From contig NZ_DS022298.1 of NCBI RefSeq assembly GCF_000153805.1, forward strand, positions 1,368,827-1,432,826: a stretch of DNA of 64,000 nt, in the 5' to 3' direction. This DNA comes from Synechococcus sp. BL107 (GTDB lineage: Bacteria; Cyanobacteriota; Cyanobacteriia; PCC-6307; Cyanobiaceae). Numbering within the stretch: the first letter of the stretch is position 1; each line of letters starts with the position of its first letter. Made by a program: the position numbers and the translations under genes. Below the pieces are notes generated by a model. That model was not told the DNA's origin. It saw only the letters and a list, made by a program, of their open reading frames with translations, and did not search any database. This document shows, piece by piece, positions 16,046-31,052 of the stretch.

Positions 16046-17041
16046 ATGTCATTCATGACTGCTATGCATCGGGTTCTGGTTCGCGTTTCGCTGGCCGCGT
16101 GTTGCGTGGGTCTGGCTGCATGCAGTGGCAACCAAGGCGCGAAACCTCTGAACGGAGCTGGTGCAACGTTCCCCGCCAAGATTTATCAGAGCTGGTTTGC
16201 CGGTTTAGCCCAGTCCGGTGGGTCCAAGGTGAACTATCAAGCGGTTGGCTCTGGTTCAGGCCGCAAGGCATTTATCGATCAAACCGTTGATTTCGCAGCA
16301 TCGGATGATCCGATCAAGGCAGTTGATCGTGAAAAGGTTGAACAGGGTGTGGTTCAAATTCCAATGGTGGGTGGAACCATTGCATTCGGATACAACAAAC
16401 CCGGTTGTGATCTAAAGCTCACGCAACAGCAAGCTGTTCAAGTTGCCATCGGCAAGATCAAGGATTGGGGCGATCTTGGCTGTGAAGCCGGAACGATTAC
16501 TTGGGTGCATCGATCGGATGGTTCTGGCACCACCAAAGCCTTCACGAATTCCATGGAAGCGTTTTCGCCTGAGTGGACCCTCGGCACGGGTAAGTCTGTT
16601 CAATGGCCGGTAGGGGTCGGCGGCAAAGGAAATTCTGGTGTTGCAGGTGTGATTGAAAACCGTGAGGGGGCGATCGGATATGTGAATCAGTCGTTTATCA
16701 AAGGCAATGTGGTGGCAGCTGCAGTGCAGAACAAATCAGGGGAGTTTTTGAAGCCTTCTGTGGAGTCTGGGGCGATTGCCTTGAATGGCATTCAACTCGA
16801 TCAATACCTCGCCGGTAAAAATCCAAACCCAACCAAAGAAGGTGCCTATCCAATCGCGACCCTCACATGGGTATTGGCCTATGAAACAGGCAACGGTGAT
16901 AAAACATCGGCTGTTAAAGATGTACTGAATTACATGTTGTCTGATGGTTCCCAAGACAAGGCGCCTTCCCTTGGATTTGTTCCTCTTAAGGGGGATATCT
17001 TGAAGGCTTCTAGGGCTGCCGTGAACAAGATTAGTGAATAG
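16046..17041 (+). CDS. pstS: phosphate ABC transporter substrate-binding lipoprotein (copy 1)
   Basis: PstS captures phosphate in the periplasm for the PstSCAB importer. The N-terminus is a lipoprotein signal (hydrophobic stretch then LAACSG), so this copy should be anchored to the membrane by its Cys near residue 27. The mature part begins with GAGATFPAKIYQSW and contains the phosphate-contacting VGSGSGRKAFI, FAASDDP and HRSDGSGTTKAFT. At 331 residues it is normal in length. Three in-frame ATGs (16046, 16055, 16064) could start it. No convincing Pho box lies in the 70 bases before it. The second pstS follows in the same direction, but pstC, pstA and pstB are not in the window. Confidence 0.95.
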   Translation: MSFMTAMHRVLVRVSLAACCVGLAACSGNQGAKPLNGAGATFPAKIYQSWFAGLAQSGGSKVNYQAVGSGSGRKAFIDQTVDFAASDDPIKAVDREKVEQGVVQIPMVGGTIAFGYNKPGCDLKLTQQQAVQVAIGKIKDWGDLGCEAGTITWVHRSDGSGTTKAFTNSMEAFSPEWTLGTGKSVQWPVGVGGKGNSGVAGVIENREGAIGYVNQSFIKGNVVAAAVQNKSGEFLKPSVESGAIALNGIQLDQYLAGKNPNPTKEGAYPIATLTWVLAYETGNGDKTSAVKDVLNYMLSDGSQDKAPSLGFVPLKGDILKASRAAVNKISE

Positions 17042-17374
17042 CTTCTTAGGAAGTAAGACTAGTCCTCACGAACTGAGGTGTTCGATTTGGTGCAACTTGT
17101 ACTCATAATGAATGTTTTTATAGATTTAATCCCTGCATCCAGAAAGATAGATTATTGATTAATTCATCGTAGCCTTTCTGAAGAGTCTATTTTACCTCTG
17201 CTATTTCCGGCTTTGTTATGAATTGCCGAAGACCTTTATTTTCTAGATACAGATGTCTTGCTCGACGGTTTTCTTAATCAAGCCTTAAACACATCTTCTT
17301 TGTGCCTTGATCTTCAATGTTATTGGATCAAGCATTATTAAGAAGCGCAATTGCGTTTTTCGCATCATTTTCTC
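17042..17374 (+). promoter_or_regulatory. pstS-pstS intergenic region
   Basis: This AT-rich stretch of about 330 bases separates the two pstS copies. It holds the Pho box at 17273-17302 and probably the promoter of the second copy. I see no reading frame of note and no clear terminator for the first copy. Confidence 0.5.
17273..17302 (+). promoter_or_regulatory. Pho box before second pstS
   Basis: Three 8-base units spaced by 3 bases read CTTAATCA, CTTAAACA and CTTCTTTG. The first two fit the cyanobacterial PhoB/SphR consensus PyTTAAPyPyT/A well; the third is weak. The box points towards the gene and lies about 70 bases before its ATG. Confidence 0.75.
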
Positions 17375-18349
17375 ATGAGCGTCTCTAGGAAGATTCTTGT
17401 TCTTTCTTCTTTGCTCGCCCTTGGGGCAGGCATGTCAGCTTCTGCAGCACCAAGAATCAACGGTGCTGGTGCATCATTCCCTGCCAAAATTTATCAGCGT
17501 TGGTTCGCTGATTTGGCGAGATCTGGTGGGCCACAAGTGAATTATCAATCCGTTGGCTCTGGTTCAGGCCGTAAGGCATTTATCGATCAAACAGTCAATT
17601 TTGCTGCATCGGATGATCCGATGAAGAAAAAAGATATGGGTAAGGTTGGCCGTGGTGTTGTCCAAATCCCAATGGTGGGTGGCACGATTGCTTTTGGCTT
17701 CAACAAGCCTGGTTGTGATTTAAAGCTGACTCAAACCCAAGCCGTCAGCGTGGCGATGGGTAAGGTCAGAAATTGGAAAGAACTTGGCTGTAAGCCTGGA
17801 ACTCTTGTTTGGGTCCATCGTTCAGATGGTTCCGGAACCACAAAAGCATTCACCAATTCGATGGAGGCCTTTTCATCAGAATGGACTCTTGGTACTGGTA
17901 AATCTGTGAAGTGGCCAGCTGGTGTTGGCGCTAAAGGTAACTCTGGCGTTGCTGGAGTGATCCAGAATCGCGTTGGTGCCATTGGATACGTCAACCAGTC
18001 CTACATCAAGGGAAATGTCAAGGCAGCTGCTTTGCAAAACAAGTCTGGTGAATTCCTGAAGCCCTCTGTTGATGCAGGAGCTCGTGCTTTGAACGGGATT
18101 ACGCTGGATAAGGATTTAGCAGGAAAAAATCCCAATCCTTCTGCAAAGGGTGCCTATCCGATCTCAACCTTGACATGGGCCTTGGCCTATAAAACTGGCA
18201 ATGGTGCTAATGCCAAGGTTGTGAAAGATGCCTTCAATTACATGCTGAGCTCTAAAGCACAGGCCATAGCTCCTGATCTGGGATTTGTCCCCCTGAAGGG
18301 AGATATCTTGAAGGCTTCTAAAGCTGCTGTTAACAAGATTGGTAAATAA
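17375..18349 (+). CDS. pstS: phosphate ABC transporter substrate-binding protein (copy 2, non-lipoprotein)
   Basis: This is a second PstS, about three-quarters identical to copy 1 by eye, with the same ligand motifs (VGSGSGRKAF, FAASDDP, HRSDGSGTTKAFT). It differs in two ways. Its signal peptide ends in ASAA with no lipobox Cys, so it should be soluble in the periplasm. Many acidic or neutral surface positions of copy 1 are Lys or Arg here, for example KKKDMGKVGRG in place of KAVDREKVEQG. I start at the ATG of MSVSRK (324 residues); a TTG eight codons upstream is possible. It has its own Pho box and a downstream terminator. Confidence 0.94.
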   Translation: MSVSRKILVLSSLLALGAGMSASAAPRINGAGASFPAKIYQRWFADLARSGGPQVNYQSVGSGSGRKAFIDQTVNFAASDDPMKKKDMGKVGRGVVQIPMVGGTIAFGFNKPGCDLKLTQTQAVSVAMGKVRNWKELGCKPGTLVWVHRSDGSGTTKAFTNSMEAFSSEWTLGTGKSVKWPAGVGAKGNSGVAGVIQNRVGAIGYVNQSYIKGNVKAAALQNKSGEFLKPSVDAGARALNGITLDKDLAGKNPNPSAKGAYPISTLTWALAYKTGNGANAKVVKDAFNYMLSSKAQAIAPDLGFVPLKGDILKASKAAVNKIGK

Positions 18350-18441
18350 TTGAAATAAAGAAGGCTTTGAAAAATGCTTTTTTTATTTCTGTATCGTTTT
18401 TAGTCGACAGTTAATCTTCTTCTAAAGCAAACACTAACAAG

Positions 18442-18472
18442 AGCCCTGCGTCCACTGTGCGTAGGGCTTTTT
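18442..18472 (+). terminator. rho-independent terminator after second pstS
   Basis: AGCCCTGCG (18442-18450) pairs with CGTAGGGCT (18460-18468) with one G-T wobble, followed by a run of T. It lies about 95 bases after the second pstS stop. The rest of the 18350-18780 interval between this gene and convergent arsJ shows no gene. Confidence 0.8.
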
Positions 18473-18780
18473 GTTGTTGCCAAAAGCATTGAAGTTTCTA
18501 GTAGCCATTGCGATGCCACTAGAGATTCTGCCAATAACGTGTCATCTGGTCGCTGTCAGCTTGTCAACAGATGTCTGCGCCAAGAAATAGCCCATTGCAA
18601 TTGTAATGATTCATCCATCTTTGATGGGAAGTTGAGGTTAGTTGATCAATAGATATCGGCATTTTGACTTCTTAAGCGTGAAAAATTTGGGAATTTTTCT
18701 TGTTAACTGGCCAATAATGCCTCCTGATCAAGGCTGATTTGATTTGCTATATCAATTCAAAGGGTGTTATCTTAGAACGA

Positions 18781-20034
18781 TTAATTAATTGGCAATAAAG
18801 ACGATGATCTCAACGTTGGTGGTAAGCGAAGGCTGGTAAGCCAAGCTAACCCCACCAGTAAACAAGACGTCCACAAACAGGCTTGCATTCCTCCAAGAAG
18901 AAAAATAGCTCCCGACAGTAACGTTCCTATTAATCGTCCAGATGCGTTGGCCATGTAATAAAAACCGACGTTCAGGCTTACGCTTTCGGAATCTGTGTAG
19001 GCAAGAACCATATACGAGTGGATCGAAGAGTTCATGGCAAACACCACTCCAAACAGAGCTAAACCAGCGGTAATTGCAATCGATACATCCACCTCGCGCC
19101 ATAGCGCAACAGCTAAAAGAGCCGGCACTGCTGTTAATAAGCCATTCCAGAATTGCAGGGCAGAGGCACCAGGAGATTGGGATTGTCCCCAGAATCGTCG
19201 CAAGGCCGGTGCTGATGCTTGGACGATCCCGTACCCAACAACCCAAAGCCCCAGGAATCCGCCGATTTCCGAGAAGTTCCAGCCCAGCGCTTCCTCCAAA
19301 AACACCGGTAATGCAACCACAAACCACACGTCCCTAGCTCCGAACAGGAAGAAACGTGCCAAGGAGAGAACATTGATTCCTTGAGACTTAGACAGGATTG
19401 ATGACAATGCAGGCTTGACTTTCATTTTGCCCATCTGCCCCGGGAGAACCAGCGTGGGGATTAATGCCATTGCCAAGCCGGCTGCCATCCACCCCATGGC
19501 CGAATTGAATCCCATCGACATGAGAAGTAAGCCACCAAGAAAAAAACCGACTCCCTTTAGGGCATTCTTTGACCCAGTGAGGATCGCAACCCATTTAAAC
19601 AATCTTTTCTCTCCAACTTGAAGATTCTCTGGGGTTTCGGAAATAACAGTTTTGATAGCACTCTTTGCACTCATTTTGTTGAGATCTTTTGCGATACCAC
19701 TGATGGCCTGAGCTATCATCACGTAGACCACACTTAATACTTTGGGCCAACTACTAGACACTGGCATTAGCATCAACAATGCCAGAATCTGAAGACATGT
19801 TCCAACCCATAGGGTTAGGCGTAATCCATATCGAGCACCAATTAATCCGCCATATAGGTTGGTAACAACACCAAAAAATTCGTAAAATAAGAATAAAAAA
19901 GCAATCTCCAGTGTCGAGTAGCCGAGGGCATGGAAGTGGAACAGCACCAGCATGCGCATGGCTCCATCCGTGAGCGTGAATGCCCAATAATTTGTTGTGA
20001 CGATGCCATATTGCTTTAACGGGGATAAATTCAT
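18781..20034 (-). CDS. arsJ: ArsJ-type MFS transporter, organoarsenical (1-arseno-3-phosphoglycerate) efflux
   Basis: The 417-residue major-facilitator protein has 11-12 hydrophobic segments. ArsJ exports 1-arseno-3-phosphoglycerate, which a partner GAPDH makes from arsenate, so the pair detoxifies arsenate. The strongest evidence for ArsJ rather than a generic MFS protein is linkage: its ATG overlaps the stop of a GAPDH gene by four bases (ATGA), the arrangement described for arsJ. N-terminal features are [27 protein letters not shown]. The position between pstS and ptrA agrees with arsenate entering through phosphate importers. Confidence 0.88.
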
Positions 20035-21056
20035 GATCCTAGATTTTCGGCAACATGACAGGCAAGATCGGCCATGCGGGAGCTATATCCCCACTCGTTG
20101 TCGTACCAGGCATAAACCTTAATTTGTGTCTTGTTCACCACCATCGTGGAAAGAGCATCAATGATGCCGCTGCGACTGTCGTTGACGTAGTCCACCGACA
20201 CCAACGGACGTGTTTCGTATCCAAGGATTCCATGGAGTTCTCCATTGGCAGCAGCTTCGAAGGCAATATTCACCTCCTGCACCGTGACCTCTTGCTCGAG
20301 TTCAAACACCGCATCCGTTAAGGAGGCATTGAGAAGAGGAACCCTGACCGCATGGCCATTGAGCTTTCCTTCTAATTCAGGAAAGATCATGCTGATCGCT
20401 TTTGCCGATCCGGTGGTTGTTGGGATCAAGCTCTGCATGCAGGAACGGGATCGCCGTAGGTCTTTATGAAATCCATCCACGACAACCTGCGTATTCGTCA
20501 CATCATGCAGAGTTGTAATCGAGCCATGTTTTATTCGAAATTTTTCGTGAACGACTTTCACTACTGGGGCTAGACAGTTGGTTGTACAGGATGCAGCTGT
20601 GATCACGCGGTGATAACCCGGGTCATAGTGATGATGATTCACACCATAAACAATATTTAAGATCTCTATATCGTTGATATGTCCCTTCACCGGGCAGGCC
20701 ACCACAATCTGTTTTAGTTTTGCTTTCTCAAAGATTGATTCGAGTATTTCTGGTTTTTTAAATTGTCCGCTGCACTCCAGCAGCATCTCAACTCCTGTCT
20801 CACACCAGGGAGCAACAGTTGGATCACTTTCACAGCTATAACTCACCAGTTGGTTTTCGACTAAAAAACCTTTTGTGTTCGCTTCAGTGGATGGTGTCCA
20901 ACGTCCATGAACAGAATCAAATACAAGAAGGTGAGCCGCTGCAGCAGCATCACCGGCGCATTCATTGACATGTACGATTTCGATGCCTGGACGACCCCAA
21001 AGAGCGCGAAAGACGAGACGCCCTATTCGACCAAAACCATTAATGCCAACCCGCAT
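20031..21056 (-). CDS. gap: ArsJ-associated glyceraldehyde-3-phosphate dehydrogenase
   Basis: The 341-residue GAPDH has the NAD-binding start [14 protein letters not shown] (residues 4-17) and the catalytic Cys in [11 protein letters not shown] (about residue 155). Its coupling to arsJ suggests that it uses arsenate in place of phosphate to make 1-arseno-3-phosphoglycerate for export, rather than serving mainly in glycolysis or the Calvin cycle. The sequence is divergent in places ([16 protein letters not shown]), unlike a housekeeping gap2. It lies directly behind a probable Pho box and is transcribed away from ptrA. Confidence 0.9.
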
Positions 21057-21107
21057 CGAATCTAAAACTACGAATCGTTCTATTAAAACTCAAACTCCTG
21101 CTGTGTT

Positions 21108-21126
21108 TAGTTCAGGTTGGGTTAAG
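21108..21126 (-). promoter_or_regulatory. probable Pho box before gap-arsJ
   Basis: On the minus strand two units, CTTAACCC (21119-21126) and CTGAACTA (21108-21115), are separated by 3 bases and point towards gap, about 50 bases before its ATG. A third unit would be poor, so this is weaker than the other boxes. Confidence 0.55.
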
Positions 21127-21301
21127 GTTTTGGAACTGTTATGGCTTCATCACCAGATTGATCCTCTAGTTTTTTGCTTCTACGTTAGAACTGCAAAAAG
21201 AATGTCCTTGACACAACTGATTTAGACCTTATAGATAAGAGAATCTTTTGATGTCTTCTGCTTGGATCAGGAGGTTTTGTGCGGTGGATAGCTCTTAGGT
21301 T

Positions 21302-21331
21302 CTTAACCCGATGATTGCTTGCCCTTAGTCC
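21302..21331 (+). promoter_or_regulatory. probable Pho box before ptrA
   Basis: Units CTTAACCC, GATTGCTT and CTTAGTCC are spaced by 3 bases; the outer two fit the consensus and the middle one is poor. The box ends about 48 bases before the chosen ptrA ATG and points towards the gene. Confidence 0.6.
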
Positions 21332-21379
21332 GTGAACGCATCATGTTGCCTAGCTTCAGTGCAGCTCAGGAGCTTTTGT

Positions 21380-22006
21380 ATGGTTTTCACTCCAAACAGC
21401 GCGAATGACTTTCTTGGCGATTTAGAAAATAGTTATCAACGTCGAAATATTGTCCATTTTATAGCTGGTTCCTCAATCCCTTTGTTGCCTGATCATGTTT
21501 GGATCGTTGTCCGAGGAATGATCAAGTTGAGTTGTCTCAATGAGCAGGGTGAAGACACTCTGCTTGGGATATTGGGTCCTAATCAGTGCTTTGGCGAACC
21601 ATTCACAGATCTCGAACTTTGTGAGTCCAAGACCTTGAGCGATTGCGATCTGTTGTGCATATCAATGGACGAAATTACATCGACTCCTCATTTGAGTGCC
21701 AACTTGATGCATTGTCTGATCAATCGGTACCGTCAATCAGAATCTTTTATTGCCCTGTTGGGTCTGCGGGGAGTACAAAATCGTGTTTGTGGTCTTCTTG
21801 AATTGCTTGTTCAAGATTACGGCCAACCCTGTGACCAGGGACTCCTGCTGACGCTTCGAATCACGCATCAGGAAATTGCTAATGCTCTTAGCACCACTCG
21901 CGTGACAGTGACGAGGGTGATGGGTATTCTCAAAGATCAGGGTTGGTTGCTACACGATAAAGACCAAAGAATTATTGTGAAACATTTACCCAAAAGAAAA
22001 TTTTAA
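21380..22006 (+). CDS. ptrA: PtrA-type Crp/Fnr family transcription regulator
   Basis: The 208-residue protein has an N-terminal cyclic-nucleotide-binding-like beta-barrel (about 20-110) and a C-terminal Crp helix-turn-helix (ITHQEIANALSTTRVTVTRVMGIL, about 165-190). In marine picocyanobacteria the Crp relative beside pstS and phoB is PtrA, which controls part of the phosphate-stress response; the context here is the same. I start at the ATG of MVFTPNSAND because AGGAG lies 7 bases before it; the upstream GTG at 21332 would overlap the Pho box end. It converges on the response-regulator gene. Confidence 0.85.
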   Translation: MVFTPNSANDFLGDLENSYQRRNIVHFIAGSSIPLLPDHVWIVVRGMIKLSCLNEQGEDTLLGILGPNQCFGEPFTDLELCESKTLSDCDLLCISMDEITSTPHLSANLMHCLINRYRQSESFIALLGLRGVQNRVCGLLELLVQDYGQPCDQGLLLTLRITHQEIANALSTTRVTVTRVMGILKDQGWLLHDKDQRIIVKHLPKRKF

Positions 22007-22048
22007 TGATTTTTTGTTGGCGTCTGATGAATTAATTGTCAGCTTTGG

Positions 22049-22753
22049 TTAGCAAAAGCGATATCCAAATCCCCGTACCGTTGATAACTTGGTCGGATCT
22101 GAAGGATTGGCTTCAATCTTTTCACGTAACCAGCGAATATGTACGTCGACTGTTTTTCTGTCGCCAATGTAATCAACTCCCCAGATTTGGTCAATTAAAT
22201 CATCCCTGCTCCAAACTCGTTTAGGATTCTGAATAAATAATTCCAAGAGCTTATATTCTTTGGGTGACAGTTTGAGGTCTTTACCACCTCTGGTAGCCCT
22301 ACATTCCTCAGGAATAAGTTCCAGATCGCAGCATTCAAATTTGTCCAGTAAGGATCGACTCAAGGGGTGTCTGCGCAACATGGCTCGACAGCGTGCAACG
22401 AATTCCCGATTGCCAAATGGCTTAACGAGATAGTCGTCGGCTCCCACCTCAAGGCCTAAAACGCAATCGGACTCTACATTCTCATCATTGATAATAAGAA
22501 TGATGGATTGAATATTATTCATCCTAAGCTCCCTGCATAGATCGAAGCAGTTCAGTCCTTTTGTTTTTCGATCTAAAATGATTAGCTCATAAGCGTCTTG
22601 TTTTAATAAATCTCTAGCATTTTTAGCATTCGCAGCTGTGGTTATAAAGCCTTCATCGTTAAGTACGTCGCACAGTGAATCTTGTGTTGCGTTGTTTTGT
22701 TCCAGGACCAGTACGCGAGGATTATCAGAAATGTCGAAAAAGTTCGTGGTCAT
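22049..22753 (-). CDS. PhoB/SphR-like OmpR-family response regulator with eroded receiver
   Basis: The 234-residue regulator has a receiver domain (13-130) and an OmpR winged helix (145-233) close in pattern to PhoB/SphR (LSPKEYKLLELF, RVWSRDDLIDQIWG, KTVDVHIRWLREK, TVRGFGYRF). The presumed phospho-acceptor Asp61 and Lys111 (VKPF) are kept. However, the acidic pair that binds magnesium is Glu18-Gln19 (VLVLEQN) instead of Asp/Glu-Asp, and the Thr/Ser of beta-4 is Asn89. Phosphorylation may therefore be weak or absent. No histidine kinase gene is adjacent. A three-unit Pho box lies upstream, in inverted orientation. Confidence 0.88.
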   Translation of the reverse strand: MTTNFFDISDNPRVLVLEQNNATQDSLCDVLNDEGFITTAANAKNARDLLKQDAYELIILDRKTKGLNCFDLCRELRMNNIQSIILIINDENVESDCVLGLEVGADDYLVKPFGNREFVARCRAMLRRHPLSRSLLDKFECCDLELIPEECRATRGGKDLKLSPKEYKLLELFIQNPKRVWSRDDLIDQIWGVDYIGDRKTVDVHIRWLREKIEANPSDPTKLSTVRGFGYRFC

Positions 22754-22775
22754 GCTGATTGGGCCATCGCTAGGA

Positions 22776-22795
22776 ATTTCACTAGGGAGTGAAAT
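22776..22795. repeat. inverted repeat in leader of the PhoB-like regulator
   Basis: ATTTCACT and AGTGAAAT form a perfect 8-base inverted repeat around AGGG, about 23-42 bases before the regulator's ATG. There is no T run, so it looks more like a protein-binding site or an mRNA hairpin than a terminator. Confidence 0.55.
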
Positions 22796-22828
22796 GATCT
22801 GCTCGTTTACTTTAGCCGCCCATTCTTG

Positions 22829-22858
22829 CTTAGGAGTTGCTTAACCCACGCTTAACCT
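22829..22858 (+). promoter_or_regulatory. Pho box upstream of the PhoB-like regulator (inverted)
   Basis: Three units, CTTAGGAG, CTTAACCC and CTTAACCT, have exact 3-base spacers; the last two are near-perfect. The box reads on the plus strand, opposite to the regulator gene whose ATG is 76 bases away. On the minus strand a TAAAGT that could be a -10 hexamer lies about 14 bases beyond the box, while I see no -10-like sequence on the plus side. Confidence 0.75.
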
Positions 22859-23080
22859 CTCGATGAATGCTTGTTTTGTGGATCTTGATCTGCCAATGAT
22901 GTTGTCTTGATCAATGAATGAAATCATTGACTCTTACCCCTTCCACATTGTTACTATTTAATAGTCAAATTGATCGTTTTTTTGAATCGTGGCCTCTTGT
23001 CGATTGACTGTCTGTCGATCGTGATTTCCATTTCGATTGAATTGGTTCATTGAGTATCTTGTTGCCATTACGTGTTGTTT
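22859..23080. other. intergenic stretch without a gene
   Basis: This AT-rich sequence lies between the regulator's Pho box and the porin terminator. No reading frame of note, RNA gene or repeat is apparent. Confidence 0.5.
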
Positions 23081-23114
23081 GAGTTGATAAAAAAAGCGCC
23101 CCGTAGGGCGCTTT
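23081..23114 (-). terminator. rho-independent terminator of the porin gene
   Basis: On the minus strand AAAGCGCCC (23106-23114) pairs perfectly with GGGCGCTTT (23093-23101) around TACG, followed by a T run. It lies about 35 bases after the porin stop. Confidence 0.9.
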
Positions 23115-23150
23115 GGTCAATCGTCTGAACTGAAGCGGATGCTTCTCGAA

Positions 23151-24818
23151 TCAGAACTTGAAGGTGGTTTGAATTAAGCCACCGAAAACTCCCAGGGACT
23201 TGTCGTTCCCTTTGAAGTTCTGGGTGTCGTCGCCATAGGGGCGAGACAACCAATACACCGCGGGCGTCACAGAGATGTTATCGGTGACTTGGAACTTGTA
23301 CCAAAGCTCCATCGCGTAGTTCGAATCGTCGAGGTTGTCACCGCCATTGTTGTCGACTTCAGTCACGAACTGAGGTTGACCAACTGCGGCGCCAAGGGCG
23401 TTCCCTTCCATGAACACATCGTTCCAGGTAAGGCCCACCATCCAGCTCGCCATCTCGCGCTTGCTGGTGTTGTTTTCCCAGGCCGAGTTGCCGTTCAAGT
23501 AAGACGCACCCACGCCTGCACTGACTGAAGGCATCCAACCAGAGTCTTCAGGACGCCAGAAGGCATTCAAAGACCAGCTGTGGCTGTCTGCATTCGTACG
23601 AACGTCCTCACCGTTTTTGTTGGTGACGGTGCAGGGCGTGCCCCACTTGCCGGAAGACGCATACTCAGTGCCGGTGCGGAACTTGGCTCCACACTGCCCA
23701 TAGCGGTAACCGGCTGCCAGACCCCACTGCTTGTTGCCATAGGCAAGTTGTGAGGTGATGTTGCCCTCGGAGTTGTCGGTCATGAAGCCGCCCGCGTTGG
23801 GGTTGCTGTCATTCGCTTCGCCTGAGTCAGCAACGTAGTTCGCTGCGACGGTGAAGTAGGCGTCGCCTTTGTCGACATTCTTCTTGTTGGAATACATCAG
23901 ACCGAAGCCGCCGCCGGTCTCTTTGTTCCAAACGCCAGGGACACCCAAGGATCCTCCGAAGAAGTCCAAGACCTTCTGACCGCCTTTGGCGTAGGCCGTC
24001 GCCTTGTAGCCCATCATCTCGGTGTTACGAGTTAACGGACCCGCCTGCACCGTGAAGCCTTCGCCGAGTGGGAAGCGGTAATACAGACGATCAATTTCAA
24101 CAAGGTTGCCGCCGGGGGCTGCCGTGTCGAGCTTGTTCAAGCCAACGCCGTTGCCGTCCCAAACACTGTCGTCGCCCATGTTGCCCGCGCGCATGCGGGT
24201 GTACAGCAGATCCTTGCCAGTGAAGGAGGTCTTCAGGCCAAGGCGCAGGTCGTAGCTGAGGGAGAAAGCTCCGTACTCAGCGTTGTAGGCCGACCGCTGA
24301 CCTTCCGATTTTTTGCTCTCTGCTTTGTAATTGTCTCCCGTGGCTTGCGTGCCACCCATGACCCAGACAGATTTTGCCTTGAGCTTGGTGGTGGTGGAGA
24401 ACTGGGTTGCTTCCAGTTCGCCAACACGAGCTTCGAGGCCGTCAACGCGTCCGCGGAGGATGGCGAGCTCGGTTTCGAATTCTTCAAGAAGGCGACGCAG
24501 TTCGTCGGTGACTTCAGTGATGCGGTCGAGACATGCGTTCAGCAGTGCTGCAGCCTCGTAACGGGTCATCGCCCGGTTGCCGCGGAAGGTGCCGTTGGGG
24601 TAACCAGCGACGCAGCCGTACTGCTCAACCAAGTTGCTGAGCGCCTGATAGGCCCAGTCAGTTGGGTAAACGTCGGAGAATTGGGTAACGCTGGTGACTT
24701 GATCGGCAGAAGCCGCGTAGTCAGAAACGCCGTTGATGTTGAGCTCGGCGGCATTGGCGCCGGAGGCCAGAAGGCCCAGGGTGGCAGGAGCCACCAGCAT
24801 TTGCTGGAAAAGCTTCAT
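23151..24818 (-). CDS. SLH-domain outer-membrane porin (Som/OprB-like), probably phosphate-regulated
   Basis: This is a 555-residue cyanobacterial porin. It has a signal peptide (ending SGANA), an SLH domain that ties it to the cell wall (FSDVYPTDWAYQAL to YEAAALLNACLDRI, about 45-100), a coiled coil (EVTDELRRLLEEFETELAILR, 104-140) and a long beta-barrel ending in Phe, the usual outer-membrane assembly signal. I start at the ATG of MKLFQQML, where the signal peptide begins. A four-unit Pho box lies about 125 bases upstream. In Prochlorococcus a porin called PhoE sits in the same kind of cluster, so this one probably helps phosphate cross the outer membrane; that role is inferred. Confidence 0.93.
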   Translation of the reverse strand: MKLFQQMLVAPATLGLLASGANAAELNINGVSDYAASADQVTSVTQFSDVYPTDWAYQALSNLVEQYGCVAGYPNGTFRGNRAMTRYEAAALLNACLDRITEVTDELRRLLEEFETELAILRGRVDGLEARVGELEATQFSTTTKLKAKSVWVMGGTQATGDNYKAESKKSEGQRSAYNAEYGAFSLSYDLRLGLKTSFTGKDLLYTRMRAGNMGDDSVWDGNGVGLNKLDTAAPGGNLVEIDRLYYRFPLGEGFTVQAGPLTRNTEMMGYKATAYAKGGQKVLDFFGGSLGVPGVWNKETGGGFGLMYSNKKNVDKGDAYFTVAANYVADSGEANDSNPNAGGFMTDNSEGNITSQLAYGNKQWGLAAGYRYGQCGAKFRTGTEYASSGKWGTPCTVTNKNGEDVRTNADSHSWSLNAFWRPEDSGWMPSVSAGVGASYLNGNSAWENNTSKREMASWMVGLTWNDVFMEGNALGAAVGQPQFVTEVDNNGGDNLDDSNYAMELWYKFQVTDNISVTPAVYWLSRPYGDDTQNFKGNDKSLGVFGGLIQTTFKF

Positions 24819-24942
24819 TGAATAGTTCCTCACACAGGAAGCGGATTTGATTGTCAAACCCGACTCATTTTATACATAAAAATGTTCCAATTAAGTGTTC
24901 TATGTCACCTGCGGATGGAAAATAGCCCAGGTATATTGATCG

Positions 24943-24983
24943 CTTAAATTGCTCTTAACCAAGCCTTATTCGCTGCTTAATAT
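24943..24983 (+). promoter_or_regulatory. four-unit Pho box upstream of the porin (inverted)
   Basis: CTTAAATT, CTTAACCA, CTTATTCG and CTTAATAT follow each other with exact 3-base spacers. This is the longest Pho-type array in the window. It reads on the plus strand, opposite to the porin gene; nothing on the plus strand downstream looks like a target. On the minus strand, AT-rich candidates for a -10 lie just beyond it (CAATAT and TATTTT near 24920-24940). Confidence 0.78.
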
Positions 24984-25113
24984 TCTTCCGGGGGTTTCAT
25001 TTTGTTGAGGCCTCAGGTTTGATTTTTGTAAGTTTCGAAGTCTTTGATTGACGCTTACTGATTTTTTGAGCTGCCTAAAAACTGATACGAGCGCTGGGTT
25101 GTTTGATTAGCCA

Positions 25114-25146
25114 AATAAAAAGCCACCCCATTGCTGGAAGGTGGCT
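25114..25146 (-). terminator. rho-independent terminator after tRNA-Pro
   Basis: On the minus strand AGCCACC (25140-25146) pairs with GGTGGCT (25121-25127), followed by TTTTATTT. It lies about 35 bases downstream of the tRNA. Confidence 0.85.
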
Positions 25147-25179
25147 TCTTGTTGAGGTTTTGACGGTCGATTCAAAAAA

Positions 25180-25253
25180 TCGGAGCGGCGGGATTTGAAC
25201 CCACGACCCCTACTACCCCAAAGTAGTGCGCTACCAAGCTGCGCCACGCCCCG
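25180..25253 (-). tRNA. tRNA-Pro (GGG anticodon)
   Basis: The 74-base minus-strand sequence folds as a full cloverleaf: acceptor CGGGGCG with CGCTCCG, D-stem GCGC/GCGC, anticodon stem CTACT/AGTAG around loop TTGGGGT (anticodon GGG, reads CCC and CCU) and T-arm with TTCAAAT. The discriminator base is A. CCA is not encoded. Confidence 0.95.
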
Positions 25254-25267
25254 TCAAACCAAAGCTA

Positions 25268-25606
25268 TCACAGTGCATTCCGGCGTCTGAGTCGTCGTAG
25301 AAGCCGAGCGTTGAGCCGAGACCGGGTGTCCATGGCGTAGTGCAAAAGACGCATCTCGCGCGCCAAGTTGCGCATCTCGCTGAGGCTCATTGAAGCCAAT
25401 CGAAGTTCTGGCAAGGTCCGCCAGGCCCGAGCTCGCATCGGTAGCGAATCGACCCCATTGATTTGCCCCAAGTTGATGGTTCCGTCGGCGATCCACTCAG
25501 GAATCAGCACAACCAGAACAGCAATGAGTCCGTACAGCTCAACCAATCCCCTCGGAAGTGGATGCAGGCGCCGTTGCTCTGATTGATCAGGTCGTTGCGC
25601 ACTCAC
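25268..25606 (-). CDS. small hypothetical protein with N-terminal hydrophobic segment
   Basis: This 112-residue protein sits upstream of the tRNA on the same strand. Residues 20-36 (LVELYGLIAVLVVLIPEW) are hydrophobic, and the tail is strongly basic (RSRLNARLLRRLRRRN). It resembles short conserved proteins of marine cyanobacteria, but I cannot assign a family. Confidence 0.65.
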   Translation of the reverse strand: MSAQRPDQSEQRRLHPLPRGLVELYGLIAVLVVLIPEWIADGTINLGQINGVDSLPMRARAWRTLPELRLASMSLSEMRNLAREMRLLHYAMDTRSRLNARLLRRLRRRNAL

Positions 25607-25673
25607 TGGGTTGTTCGAGGCGCTCTAGTTATTCCACGATGGCATCGCTGCATCAATTTGCCCCCCGATTGAT

Positions 25674-25838
25674 TCAGATGGCCAACGACTTCGTCGGTTG
25701 GTCGGGTTGGTCTCTCCAGAGCAAACCAGGCTCTCGCTCTTGTTCTGGCTTCACACTCATTAGAACCAAGCCAATCACCACAACCAATGTGAGTGCAATG
25801 GCAGCCAAAACTTGGCGATCGGTCAATTGATTGGGCAT
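25674..25838 (-). CDS. small single-span membrane protein
   Basis: This 54-residue frame begins 8 bases after the msrA stop. It has one clear membrane segment (LAAIALTLVVVIGLVLM, about 11-27) and a charged C-terminus. The longer frame upstream of this ATG runs into msrA and is not used. The function is unknown; it is probably co-transcribed with msrA. Confidence 0.65.
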   Translation of the reverse strand: MPNQLTDRQVLAAIALTLVVVIGLVLMSVKPEQEREPGLLWRDQPDQPTKSLAI

Positions 25839-25846
25839 TTGTTGCG

Positions 25847-26560
25847 TTAGTGCTTCGGGATTGGGCTGTTGTCGCCGCGAAGAACGCAGTGCTGAATGCT
25901 CCAGTCGTAGTTCTCCCAAACTTTGTTTGGAAGTTTGTAGGTGGCGCCAGAAAAATCCGCTAGCAATGCCTGGGTCGGCATGGCTGAGCAATAGGGGCGG
26001 CTGCCTGGTTTGGCGAGGTACTGCTGGTGGTACTCCTCGGCAAAGAAAAACTGTTGATCCGCCAAGATTTCGGTGGTGATCGGTCCGAAACCACGCTGGT
26101 TCAATTCACCTTGGTAAGCCTCTTTGCTCGCATTGGCGAGGAGCAATTGCTGCTCTGTTGTGGTGTAAATCGCTGAGCGGTATTGGCTGCCCGTGTCGTT
26201 GCCCTGGCGGTTGCCTTGGGTTGGGTCATGGCATTCCCAAAACAATTTCAAAAGATCGCTGAAATCGATCGCTGGCGTGCTCCAAACCACCCGGACGACT
26301 TCCGTGTGGCCAGTCCGACCTGAACACACCTGGTTGTAGGAAGGATTCTCAACGGTTCCGCCGGCATAGCCCACGGCAGTACTCACCACACCTGGTAAGC
26401 GCCAAAAGCCCTTTTCGGCTCCCCAAAAACATCCACAGGCAAACACCGCTTCTTCTTGGTCATCCATTAATGGAGCCCGTAGAGCTGTCCCCAACACCGC
26501 GTGGATGGCAGCCTTTTGTTGCTCGTCACTGCCACCAGAAGACAGCCAAGAGGGAAGCAT
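25847..26560 (-). CDS. msrA: peptide methionine-(S)-S-oxide reductase
   Basis: MsrA repairs oxidised methionine in proteins. The active-site Cys lies in [14 protein letters not shown] (about residues 41-54), and [17 protein letters not shown] and [14 protein letters not shown] are family signatures. At 237 residues it is slightly longer than core MsrA because of an N-terminal extension of about 35 residues. Confidence 0.95.
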
Positions 26561-26584
26561 GGTGATTCAATCGTGGAGCTGAGC

Positions 26585-26848
26585 CTAAGCAGCTCCTTCG
26601 TTTTCGGTGACTGGCTCCAGCTGAATGTGGTTCAGCAGGGTGGTCACAAAGGCAAACAGTAAAAAGGGAAGGCTGAGCACAAGGATCAAACCAACACCCA
26701 CCAATGCAAATAAGGGACGTGATGAACCCATCAGCGCCAATCCGGCAGCAAGGCTGACAAAGATCACCACCATCCATGCCAAAACTTGGCCGTAGATGTC
26801 TCCGAAGGAGAGCGTGCAGCGCATCGCGAGGGGGGATCCGGCTGTCAT
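26585..26848 (-). CDS. two-span membrane protein, unknown
   Basis: From the ATG giving MTAGSPLAMRC this is an 87-residue protein with two hydrophobic segments (VLAWMVVIFVSLAAGLALM and PLFALVGVGLILVLSLPFLLF). The longer frame upstream overlaps the ABC transporter and is unlikely. It lies between msrA and the ABC exporter on the same strand. No function is apparent. Confidence 0.65.
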   Translation of the reverse strand: MTAGSPLAMRCTLSFGDIYGQVLAWMVVIFVSLAAGLALMGSSRPLFALVGVGLILVLSLPFLLFAFVTTLLNHIQLEPVTENEGAA

Positions 26849-26915
26849 CACATTCAGTCGCCTTGCATTAGCTAAGCCCCGAACGGCGTATTTGGCCGGC
26901 CCGTGTCCTACTTCT

Positions 26916-28679
26916 TTAAGAAGCCATCGCGTCGAGCTCTTCCACTGCTTGCTCTCGTTCCCAAAGACGGCGATAGACACCAGCGATCTGAATCAGCTCG
27001 TTGTGGTGTCCTTGTTGAACGATTTGACCGTTGTCCATCACCAGAATCCGATCGCAAGCAGCTGCTGCTGAGAGTTGGTGACTGATCATCACAATTGTGC
27101 GCCCATCTTGCGCACGAATGGAGTCGAGAATCGCTGCGGCCGTGTTGTTGTCCACGCTGGCGAGGGCATCATCCAGCACCAGAACTGGGGCATCCACCAG
27201 GAGGGCGCGACCGAGGGCCGTGCGTTGGCGTTGCCCTCCACTCAACGTGATTCCCCGTTCTCCCACGATCGTCTTGTAGCCGTCGGGGAAGCCTTTGATG
27301 TCGTCAGCCAATCGTGCTTGAGTTGCTGCCGTTTCCACTTGAGCCGTGTCGGCCTCCGGCTCCCCGTAACGGAGGTTGTCCGCCAGGGTGCTCGTGAACA
27401 GAAATCCCTCTTGGGGAACGATGGCCACGTCGTGGCGTAGCTCCTGTAGGGCGAGATCGGTGATGTCGACTCCATCGAGGAAGAGTTCTCCTTCCGCCAC
27501 AGGCACCATCCGTCCGAAGGCCCTGGCCAGGGTTGTCTTCCCACAGCCAACAGCGCCAACCACCGCCACCAACTCGCCGGGTTCGATCGTGAACGTCAGT
27601 CCGTTGAGGGTGTCGCGATCAGCCCCGTCGTAGCGAACTCTGAGATTGCGAGCTTCGAATCGGCCGCGGGGCTCATGCTCCTGCTTGGTAATAGAAATTG
27701 TGGAGGTTCGATCCTGGATCGCTGGTTCGCGTTGGAGAAGTTCTTCCACGCGTTCAAGACTCACTTGTCCGGTTTGAAAGGTGTTGAGCGTGAATCCCAA
27801 CAGCGCTGTGGGGAAGACCAATTGCTCCACATAAATGATCAGAGCCACCAAACCGCCAATGCTGAGCGTTCCTGACTCGAGTTGGCCGCTACCGATGGCG
27901 AGCAGCAGCAGCAGCGAAATCGATGAGATTCCCTCCAGCAGCGGGAAGAGTGTGCTGCGGGTCCGTGCGAGGCGGATCGCACTGTCGCGATAGCGCCGGT
28001 TTCGCCCCGAAAATGCATCCTGTTCTGATGCTTCTTGTCCATAAATTTTGATCGCACCGATCCCGGATAAATCCTCCTGAATCAGGTTGCTTAACCCCGC
28101 AAGTTCTTGTTGTTGAGCCCGCTGTTGGCGCATCATCCGACCACCAAACAAGCGCACCGTGCCAAGCATCAGGGGGTAAAGCCCTACAGCAGCCAGGGTG
28201 AGTTTTGGATCAATCGCCAGCATCGCCGGCAATGTCATGGCGTAAGCCAAAAGCGTGTTGGTGAGGCTGAGAATGGCGAATCCAAGCAATCGGCGAATGT
28301 TTTCAACATCGCTGGTGGCCCGGCTGATCACTTCGCCGCTACCGGTGGTTTGAACCCAGTTCGGCTCCTGCCGCAACATGTGTTCAAACAAACGTTGTCG
28401 GAGATCCACTTCCACCTGGCGACCAATCCCAAACACCAGCTGGCGTGAGATCAATCGAATCACCGCCATCGTGCTGGTGAGCACCACGATCCAACCCGCT
28501 TGCCGAAGGATTCCTGTGTATGAAAACCCCTGCTGTAACTCGTCAACGACGTTACGAACCTCAAGCGGAATGGTGACTCTGAGGAAATTGACCAGAACGA
28601 GCGCGATGGCTCCGATCACCACCGTTTTTCGATGGGGTCGTAAATAACGGCCGATCAGATCAAGACGGAATGCGGCCAT
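26916..28679 (-). CDS. ABC exporter, fused permease and ATPase
   Basis: This is a type-I ABC exporter half-transporter (587 residues from MAAFRLDLIGRYL). Six membrane segments fill residues 20-310. The nucleotide-binding domain has Walker A GAVGCGKTTLA, signature LSGGQRQRTALGRAL, Walker B VLVLDDALASVD and an H-loop (ISHQLS). The substrate is unknown; lipid or drug export is typical. The upstream ATG at 28733 adds 18 residues and cannot be excluded. Confidence 0.92.
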   Translation of the reverse strand: MAAFRLDLIGRYLRPHRKTVVIGAIALVLVNFLRVTIPLEVRNVVDELQQGFSYTGILRQAGWIVVLTSTMAVIRLISRQLVFGIGRQVEVDLRQRLFEHMLRQEPNWVQTTGSGEVISRATSDVENIRRLLGFAILSLTNTLLAYAMTLPAMLAIDPKLTLAAVGLYPLMLGTVRLFGGRMMRQQRAQQQELAGLSNLIQEDLSGIGAIKIYGQEASEQDAFSGRNRRYRDSAIRLARTRSTLFPLLEGISSISLLLLLAIGSGQLESGTLSIGGLVALIIYVEQLVFPTALLGFTLNTFQTGQVSLERVEELLQREPAIQDRTSTISITKQEHEPRGRFEARNLRVRYDGADRDTLNGLTFTIEPGELVAVVGAVGCGKTTLARAFGRMVPVAEGELFLDGVDITDLALQELRHDVAIVPQEGFLFTSTLADNLRYGEPEADTAQVETAATQARLADDIKGFPDGYKTIVGERGITLSGGQRQRTALGRALLVDAPVLVLDDALASVDNNTAAAILDSIRAQDGRTIVMISHQLSAAAACDRILVMDNGQIVQQGHHNELIQIAGVYRRLWEREQAVEELDAMAS

Positions 28680-28776
28680 GCGGAGGTCCGTTTGGTTGAA
28701 CAACCTAGGCATTTGCCGAAGCAACCCTGGCAAGCCACCGGCTGATTGGTAATAGTGGAAGTGTCCCCATCACCTG

Positions 28777-28807
28777 GCCCGGCGTGCATCGCACCCGGGC
28801 TTTTTTT
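28777..28807 (+). terminator. terminator-like hairpin immediately before trpD
   Basis: GCCCGG (28777-28782) pairs with CCGGGC (28795-28800). Inside it GTGC pairs with GCAC around ATC, with one bulged C, and seven T follow (28801-28807). It has all marks of an intrinsic terminator on the plus strand, yet it ends 9 bases before the trpD ATG, suggesting attenuation or a leader RNA. Confidence 0.75.
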
Positions 28808-28816
28808 CTGGCTGTC

Positions 28817-29872
28817 ATGGCTGAACTGCCCTCCACGATTTCTTGGCCCCAGCGTCTTGAGCAGCTCCTGCAGGGGCAGGATCTATCGGCGACTGCGGCG
28901 GCGTCGTTGATGCAAGCGTGGTTGGCGGAGGAGTTATCACCTGTTCAAACAGGTGCCTTCCTCGCCGGTTTGCGTGCCAAAGGGATAGTGGCCGATGAAC
29001 TGGCCGCCATGGCCTCTGTGTTGCGTGGGGCTTGCCCACTACCCTGCGACCGCCCCGATTTAGCGATGGTGGATACGTGTGGCACCGGCGGAGACGGTGC
29101 TGACACCTTCAACATCTCCACGGCCGTGGCGTTCACGGCTGCCGCCCTTGGTGTGAATGTGGCCAAGCATGGCAATCGCAGTGCGAGCGGCAAAGTGGGC
29201 TCAGCAGATGTGTTGGAAGGGTTAGGCCTCAACCTCAAAGCACCTCTCACCTCCGTTGTGGATGCCATCTCCACAACGGGAGTCACCTTTTTATTTGCAC
29301 CGGCGTGGCATCCAGCCCTGGTGAACCTGGCTCCCCTACGTCGCAGTCTTGGCGTTCGCACCGTGTTCAACCTGTTGGGCCCACTGGTGAACCCTCTACA
29401 ACCTCAGGCCCAAGTGCTTGGAGTTGCGCGAGCTGATCTACTCGATCCCATGGCTGGAGCCCTCCACCAACTGCGGTTAGATCGTGCCGTTGTGGTGCAT
29501 GGCGCTGGCGGTTTGGACGAAGCCTCCCTGGCAGGTGCGAACGAACTACGCATGATCGAAGCAGGGCAACCGATTGCAACACGCTTGGTCTCACCCGACG
29601 ATTTAGGGCTGGCCGCTGCACCGCTCGAGGCATTGCGTGGTGGTGATTTGGCAGACAATCAGCGCATTCTTGAGAACGTCCTGAAGGGCCAGGCCACCGT
29701 TGCCCAAATGGATGTTGTGGCCTTCAACACGGCCTTGGTTCTCTGGGTTGCTGGTGTTGAACTCGATCTGAAAACAGCCGCTCGACGGGCGTCAGACACT
29801 CTCCGCGAGGGTCTGCCTTGGCAAAAACTTCAAGGCCTTCAACGGGTCTTGTCCCATGAAAATGGACAATGA
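28817..29872 (+). CDS. trpD: anthranilate phosphoribosyltransferase
   Basis: TrpD joins anthranilate and PRPP in tryptophan biosynthesis. The 351-residue protein has the PRPP/metal motif [17 protein letters not shown] (about 81-97), the anthranilate-site [18 protein letters not shown], and the later [17 protein letters not shown] start at the ATG of [10 protein letters not shown], because the frame further upstream runs through the T tract of the hairpin. carA follows closely in the same direction. Confidence 0.96.
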
Positions 29873-29879
29873 AAGCAAG

Positions 29880-31052
29880 ATGACCCTGTCTTCGGTCCCA
29901 ATGCCTGGTTCCCCGTCCGGCGAAGCGCACCTCGTTCTCGCCGATGGCACGGTTCTGAGTGGCATCGGTTTTGGACACCGCGGAACAGCGGTTGGAGAGG
30001 TTGTTTTTACTACCGGGATGACCGGCTACCAGGAGGTCTTGACCGACCCCTCCTATGAAGGTCAGCTGGTGACGTTCACCTATCCCGAGCTGGGTAATAC
30101 CGGTGTGAATGCCGATGATCAGGAGGCTGACTCTCCTCATGCTCGTGGGGTTATCGCCCGGCAACTAGCACCTAATTTCAGCAATTGGCGTGGCCAGGCT
30201 TCCCTTGAATCCTGGATGGATGACCATCAACTAGTGGGTATTTGTGGCGTCGATACGCGCGCCCTTGTTCGCCATCTCCGTGATTGCGGTGCAATGAACG
30301 GTGTGATTTGCAGTGATGGCCGCAGCCCGGCTGCGCTGCTTGAAGAACTGCGGGCCGCTCCTTTGATGGAGGGATTGAATCTGGCCAGTCGTGTGTCGAC
30401 AAAAGAGTCCTATCGCTGGACCAAGGCTTGCCGCGTCGATTTTGATCAGCGCCTACACAACAATCCCAATCGACCATTCCACGTGGTGGCGATCGATTTT
30501 GGGATTAAGCGCGCCATTTTGGATCGTCTAGTGGCCCACGGTTGCGAGCTCACGGTGCTGCCAGCGAATAGCGATGTCGCCACGGTTCGTTCCCACCAGC
30601 CCGATGGTGTTTTTCTCTCCAATGGTCCGGGTGATCCAGCCGCTGTGACCCAAGGCATTGCCCTGGCTAAGGATCTTCTACAGGAAGAAAATCTTCCAGT
30701 GTTTGGAATCTGCCTGGGGCACCAGATCCTTGGTTTGGCCTTGGGGGGCTCCACATTCAAGCTCGCCTATGGCCATCGCGGTTTGAACCATCCCTGCGGG
30801 ACCACGGGTCAGGTGGAGATCACCAGCCAAAATCACGGGTTCGCTCTCGATGCGAATTCCCTTGCGTCGGATCAGATCGATGTCACCCATTTCAATCTCA
30901 ACGATCGAACCGTCGCGGCCATCGCCCACCGTGAGAAACCCATCTTTGGCGTTCAATACCACCCAGAGGCAAGCCCTGGGCCCCACGATGCAGACCATCA
31001 CTTTTCCCGATTCGTGGCGTTGATGTCTGAACGACGTCGAGTGGGTGGTTGA
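29880..31052 (+). CDS. carA: carbamoyl-phosphate synthase small (glutaminase) subunit
   Basis: CarA releases ammonia from glutamine for carbamoyl phosphate, the precursor of arginine and pyrimidines. The class-I glutaminase has the nucleophile Cys in [15 protein letters not shown] (about 275-289) and the His-Glu pair in [12 protein letters not shown] (about 362). The start is ambiguous: ATGs at 29856 and 29862 overlap the trpD end, while the ATG at 29880 leaves a short gap. I chose the latter. Confidence 0.95.

Follow-up and report, generated by a model that had tools for sequence, protein, structure and literature searches.

The cassette and its porin

The window, the whole 64,000-nucleotide stretch of Synechococcus sp. 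BL107 analysed here, comes from a genome held in a single contig of 2,285,034 bases. It contains a cassette with the order pstS (plus), arsJ (minus), ArsJ-type gap (minus), ptrA (plus), phoB (minus) and porin (minus), whose features are as follows.

17033-25018, no strand: segment absent from the sister genome G006, which has 53 bp instead; it contains the whole phosphate/arsenate cassette
17273-17302, plus strand: predicted Pho box of the second pstS, CTTAATCA/CTTAAACA/CTTCTTTG, toward the gene
17351-18349, plus strand: second pstS; the open reading frame begins at TTG 17351, and an ATG near 17376 is the likelier start
18781-20034, minus strand: ArsJ organoarsenical efflux transporter (NF033734)
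20031-21056, minus strand: ArsJ-associated glyceraldehyde-3-phosphate dehydrogenase, gap (NF033735)
21332-22006, plus strand: PtrA, a CRP-family regulator (NF053664, 300.5 bits, above the cut-off of 300)
22049-22753, minus strand: divergent PhoB, no PhoR found; phospho-acceptor Asp, Lys and DNA-binding domain kept
22829-22858, plus strand: three-unit array upstream of phoB, CTTAGGAG/CTTAACCC/CTTAACCT, away from phoB (minus strand)
23151-24818, minus strand: porin gene with OprB and SLH domains (NCBIfam por_somb, "iron uptake porin")
24867-24874, minus strand: candidate porin -10 (TATAAA / TAAAAT), a hexamer match, with TAAAAT 22 bp after GTGN8CAC
24895-24908, minus strand: CRP/NtcA-type palindrome GTGN8CAC (GTGACATAGAACAC), 34 bp from the array on the porin side
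24943-24983, plus strand: four-unit predicted Pho-box array, CTTAAATT/CTTAACCA/CTTATTCG/CTTAATAT, 11-nt period, away from the porin

The sister genome G006 is otherwise collinear with the window at 92-94%, and the segment that it lacks runs on for 35 bp beyond the array. Five species of another genus (g64: G104, G144, G169, G190 and G296) share the cassette order, preceded on the left by the same genes (acs, bcp and dnaQ), and have one pstS to the window's two; loss in G006 is therefore at least as likely as gain here. Within the phosphate cassette sits an arsenate detoxification pair, ArsJ and its associated GAPDH (18781-21056, minus strand). Viral spread of the porin was considered and rejected: 10 stretches in viral contigs fit a pattern, and none encoded a relative.

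Sequence and rarity of the array

Cyanobacterial Pho boxes are SphR/PhoB-binding direct repeats of 8 bp separated by 3-bp linkers (Su et al. 2007, PMC1906773). The units before the porin, CTTAAATT (24943-24950), CTTAACCA (24954-24961), CTTATTCG (24965-24972) and CTTAATAT (24976-24983), follow one another on the plus strand with 3-base gaps, so that the array has the usual composition of tandem 8-bp units like CTTAACCT, three or more in number. With the porin start at 24818 on the minus strand, the array lies 125-165 bp upstream and reads away from the porin, not toward the gene that it would control.

Four CTTA motifs at the 11-nt period occur once in the 2.285 Mb genome, and the reversed-pattern control gives no match; the preliminary description of a four-unit Pho box with 3-base spacing, the longest array here, is borne out. 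Three such motifs give three overlapping forward matches in two places, this array and 22829-22858, and none in reverse (controls 0 and 1). The triple has no match in 33 same-genus genomes, where the control has 3, and is present in 20 of the 98 genomes searched, mostly larger genomes from other families. A looser YTTA triple returns the same two places in the genome; because its reversed control gives 8 matches, the strict CTTA pattern alone counts as rare. YTTAA-N6-YTTAA has 12 matches (7 forward, 5 reverse; controls 7 and 15), and both units are CTTAA in four of them, three inside the window (pstS, phoB and porin). Scored as four units with a matrix built from 57 units in 19 rows of Table 1 of Su et al. 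2007 (PMC1906773), the array reaches 29.9 in the away direction (0/200 dinucleotide shuffles) and 6.4 toward the porin (64/200).

Orientation of the other boxes in the cassette

A three-unit test took the best box within 250 bp upstream and 200 shuffles per promoter at six loci, the window and the five g64 species. Boxes of pstS read toward the gene in 6/6 loci (shuffle frequency at most 0.010), as do those of ptrA (at most 0.035), with window scores of 17.0 (0.010) and 12.2 (0.035), respectively; porin boxes read away in 6/6 (0/200). The pstS of one g64 locus (L243) also has an away box, at a shuffle frequency of 0.015. The boxes of pstS, ptrA and gap had been described as facing their genes, which holds for the first two. 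The gap box is weak in the window (3.8, shuffle frequency 0.835), clear in two g64 loci (L246, 0.005; L244, 0.025) and at 0.055-0.135 in the three others. Because gap and ptrA share one intergenic region, the away box of either gene is the toward box of the other.

That every box other than the porin's faces its gene is contradicted by the array upstream of phoB (22829-22858), which reads away with a score of 17.2 (1/200, 0.005) and toward with 11.1 (12/200). The five g64 loci yielded no away array upstream of phoB and one weak toward match (L245, 0.045). The phoB array points to possible autoregulation of phoB.

Conservation of the inverted array

Comparison of the upstream region in relatives, a check named beforehand as an alignment, covered the g64 species and a third genus, g9; units were compared by score because the alignment left the window units unaligned to those of the relatives. 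An away array precedes the phoB-linked porin in all 8 other scorable loci, five in g64 and three in g9, which sustains both the array and its reported direction (9/9 scored phoB-linked porins). With four-unit scoring all nine loci, which represent three lineages and are not independent cases, have the away array at no more than 1/200 shuffles, and the best toward value is 26/200. The three g9 genomes with a phoB-linked porin each have a three-unit away array at 0/200, and the L246 porin also has a three-unit toward box at a shuffle frequency of 0.045. Four genomes could not be scored: the contig of G332 ends in the porin, and no porin was found in the stretches from G133, G200 and G229. By blastn, 24860-25018 (the array and its flanks) has no match beyond its own genome among 257 loci, and 25019-25180 matches G006 at 93%.

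Porins of the same genus that are not known to lie beside phoB have a gene-facing box in 11/22 cases (at most 10/200; about 1 expected) and an away-facing box in 0/22 (lowest 24/200), phoB distance being judged from match coordinates and several genomes being drafts. Seven of 29 porin loci from other genomes were omitted from this set, their start codon or upstream DNA lying outside the match. The gene-facing porins include near orthologues: L151 (86% identical, 5/200) and L152 and L154 (85%, 0/200). A porin-wide explanation was rejected, there being no away boxes among the 22. Gene-facing Pho-box-like arrays lie about 117 bp before the porin starts in L152, L154, L155, L170 and others. Two explanations of the direction had been offered at the outset, that orientation does not matter here or that a plus-strand transcript exists; the former best fits 9/9 boxes facing away versus 11/22 facing the gene.

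What the array faces

The plus side of the array differs between lineages. In g9, a DUF2808 gene divergent from the phoB-linked porin is faced by the array and starts 86, 87 and 119 bp from it at three loci.

L247, 1792-2382: DUF2808 gene divergent from the porin
L248, 1015-1602: DUF2808 gene divergent from the porin
L249, 1765-2352: DUF2808 gene divergent from the porin

The DUF2808 gene, to which no function is assigned, is a possible member of the Pho regulon. In g64, bioY occupies the plus side in 5/5 loci at about 380-510 bp (Pfam in L242; tblastn in five), and part of the interval between array and bioY is alike among these species. In the window, the plus side holds a minus-strand tRNA-Pro(ggg), and no plus-strand open reading frame of at least 80 aa lies between the array and 25558. 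When the three DUF2808 proteins served as tblastn queries (E up to 5), the window gave no match and the five g64 loci a single one at chance level (L242, E 0.22). Judged from gene order, the porin is the constant partner of the array across lineages.

If the array drove a plus-strand transcript, such as a small or untranslated RNA, it would act in the usual orientation and the porin would be a mere neighbour. This would suit the pstS and ptrA boxes, which face a transcribed unit in 6/6 loci, the DUF2808 gene that the array faces in the three g9 genomes, and the partly conserved space before bioY in g64. The transcript is nevertheless unsupported, because the gene faced by the array changes between lineages while the porin stays. 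No -10-like or TAnnnT-like hexamer recurs at a fixed spacing after the array (by eye), and the segment absent from G006 stops 35 bp beyond it. An Rfam search of 20000-30000 at E≤1 returned the tRNA and one match far under the gathering score, and nothing else; one terminator-like site lies right after the array (24991-25014, plus strand), with 0.9 expected by chance. With no Rfam family at the array and a lone terminator-like site at chance level, a plus-strand small RNA was rejected as a candidate, and we consider a plus-strand role for the array unlikely.

The porin promoter

Between the array and the porin, a GTRN8YAC palindrome is present in 8/9 loci, 20-34 bp from the array, and is missing in L246. 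In 4/6 porin promoters (window, L242, L243 and L245), it is followed after 19-26 bp by TAnnnT or TATAAA, with shuffle frequencies of 0-0.030 for a palindrome that is short and was found after the fact. The distance from palindrome to -10-like hexamer varies from 22 to about 30, the upper value being judged by eye. No CRP-like site at class-II spacing was found in the pstS, ptrA, gap and phoB promoters of the same cassettes (0/24). A sigma-70 scan of 24700-25400 on both strands gave 0 pairs of -35 and -10 elements (0.6 expected).

PtrA scores 76.1 bits with the NtcA model, and its recognition helix presumably resembles that of NtcA. PtrA is NtcA-like and therefore a candidate for the palindrome at 24895-24908, a candidate PtrA or NtcA site. 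Because the array lies 20-34 bp upstream of the palindrome in 8/9 loci, PhoB may act as the upstream partner of a CRP-family activator.

By blastn, the 22 bases immediately ahead of the porin start have matches in G006 porins. The stretch 24377-24840, which covers the 5' end of the porin gene and the adjoining upstream bases, is 98% identical to three G006 porin places and 94% to a fourth; being far closer to G006 than the rest of the gene, this stretch points to recent exchange between porin genes.

The array and the candidate -10 are about 68 bp apart; relative to the likely start, the array occupies roughly -80 to -120. Pho boxes of E. coli have a fixed orientation. They lie 10 bp upstream of the -10 (PMC1906773), and the inverted, distant placement of the array differs from theirs in both respects, which speaks against activation of the porin. 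The same placement, different also from the pstS and ptrA boxes, would suit a repressor site, at which bound PhoB blocks or loops the porin promoter and porin levels fall under phosphate limitation; the array also adjoins a possible activator site. Against repression, the array stands clear of the candidate -10, and porins of related cyanobacteria rise at low phosphate, one of them through PhoB. Synechocystis 6803 porin slr1908 is reported as PhoB-bound and increases 7.5- and 4.6-fold without phosphate, less so in a phoB mutant (PMC11126600); porin SYNW2224 of WH8102 shows a 2.1-fold increase at low phosphate with Zn (PMC3865332); and the PhoE porin of Prochlorococcus MIT9312 rises more than 15-fold (PMC3349580). 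Repression seems improbable to us, ranking below the plus-strand transcript.

A PhoB for which no PhoR was found

The window PhoB has changes in its receiver: the second beta-1 acidic residue is Q in place of D, and the switch Ser/Thr is N. Its pocket residues (two beta-1 acids, Asp, Ser/Thr and Lys) read E/Q/D/N/K and depart from the full set. All six PhoBs of the orphan clade (window and five g64) have Q or H in place of the second beta-1 acid, and in one g64 PhoB (L215) the phospho-acceptor Asp is N; all five residues are kept in the other 41 of 47 rows, counting E/D and S/T as equal. TIGR02154 (PhoB) is the best family for the window protein at 175.3 bits, under its cut-off of 296.2, and a PhoR-adjacent relative is also under it, at 219.2. 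The genome holds one PhoB-type gene at E≤1e-40, with 49-59% identity to same-genus PhoBs and 66-68% to the five g64 PhoBs (400 genomes of the family sampled). A PhoB scan of genome contigs yielded 80 loci, mostly distant regulators, the best at 53% apart from one partial match at 71%.

Synechocystis 6803 and Prochlorococcus have a PhoR-type sensor. The best PhoR match in the window's own genome has an E value of 8.7e-22, versus 5.4e-129, 9.2e-94 and 4.5e-86 in G133, G314 and G329, and the best matches in G000, G006 and the five g64 genomes (8.7e-22 to 7.0e-30) are at the level of other kinases. No partner PhoR was thus found that would make a PhoBR pair with the window PhoB. The ptrA-phoB interval holds phoR in 20/21 g9 loci, the remaining locus showing no ptrA, but not in the window or g64; a porin lies beside phoB (within 1.5 kb) in 4/21 of the g9 loci. 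In a PhoB tree, the window and the five g64 proteins form one branch (100/100) adjoining G332 (95/86); another neighbour of the orphan branch is a g9 group of four proteins, three with an observed link to a porin (11 rows, 100/99). The window branch is long, and long-branch joins are flagged. The window PhoB is apparently an orphan whose partner sensor, PhoR, seems to be lost. With an eroded receiver and no PhoR found, it may not be activated by low phosphate.

Erosion of the receiver and the failure to find a sensor would also be expected if the array were left over from a divergent promoter and no longer acted on the porin, and neither the window nor any of the five g64 loci has the divergent gene next to the porin. 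However, units and spacing outscore nearly all shuffles in 6/6 genomes without the divergent gene, and the DNA-binding domain of PhoB is conserved. A relic is, in our estimate, the least probable of the alternatives.

Proposed control of the porin by an array that faces away

The array, its orientation and conservation, the turnover of its neighbours, the receiver changes and the failure to find PhoR are read from the DNA. They lead us to favour, at a probability of roughly 60%, a PhoB site that controls the porin although it faces away from it, most likely raising transcription when phosphate is scarce. Several PhoB (SphR) molecules would bind the array head to tail and control the minus-strand porin gene; under phosphate scarcity, PhoB on the array would increase porin transcription. 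PhoB would serve as the upstream partner of a CRP-family activator, possibly PtrA, in place of the usual -35 contact. The array may descend from, or resemble, a shared divergent control region: in g9, with PhoR beside PhoB, it lies between the porin and divergent DUF2808, and in the window and g64 it is kept where DUF2808 is not beside the porin. Against activation, the g9 array could serve DUF2808 alone in its three genomes.

A wider proposal is tentative, and we hold it at clearly less than even odds. One lineage of marine picocyanobacteria, conceivably that of the clades said to be without phoB and phoR, may have kept phosphate control through an orphan, pocket-degraded PhoB without PhoR; its signal would come through PtrA or the amount of PhoB, and it would read conserved Pho boxes, including the inverted array acting on the porin with a CRP-type site. 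Clade I and IV strains are all reported to be without phoB and phoR (PMC7522525), and an orphan PhoB bears on their phosphate response if the present genomes belong to them. Pho-box scans seek direct repeats that point at a gene, so a conserved inverted array could be missed or misassigned. The array also offers a natural test of the role of orientation in PhoB activation, and the facing boxes of same-genus porins versus the away box here make promoter swaps possible. Among the titles and opening lines of abstracts searched in the open-licence literature, none describes an inverted cyanobacterial Pho box or an orphan PhoB in these strains.

Comparison with known systems

The array resembles the cyanobacterial Pho box in its 8-bp units, 3-bp linkers, at least three tandem CTTAACCT-like copies and position upstream of a phosphate-related gene, and differs in reading away from its likeliest target, about 68 bp from the candidate -10 (PMC1906773). 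Predicted boxes and PhoB binding do not always coincide: in phage S-PM2, two promoters with predicted boxes are reported as unbound by PhoB, and one without a box as bound (PMC10976474). As with slr1908 (PMC11126600) and Prochlorococcus PhoE (PMC3349580), the predicted target of phosphate control in the window is an outer-membrane porin, which, unlike those two, adjoins phoB.

The window PhoB is comparable to ChxR, HP1043 and NblR, atypical OmpR/PhoB-type regulators that work independently of phosphorylation (PMC3960148), in its lost receiver pocket residues and in that no partner kinase was found. Unlike them, it retains both the phospho-acceptor Asp and the Lys, and it has the DNA-binding domain and nearby boxes of PhoB. 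A further parallel is the PhoBR-PtrA cascade of Synechococcus WH8102 (cited in PMC11098088), with which the window shares phoB, ptrA, pstS and a Pho-box-like array before ptrA; unlike that cascade, the window has no PhoR found, and ptrA directly follows phoB tail to tail.
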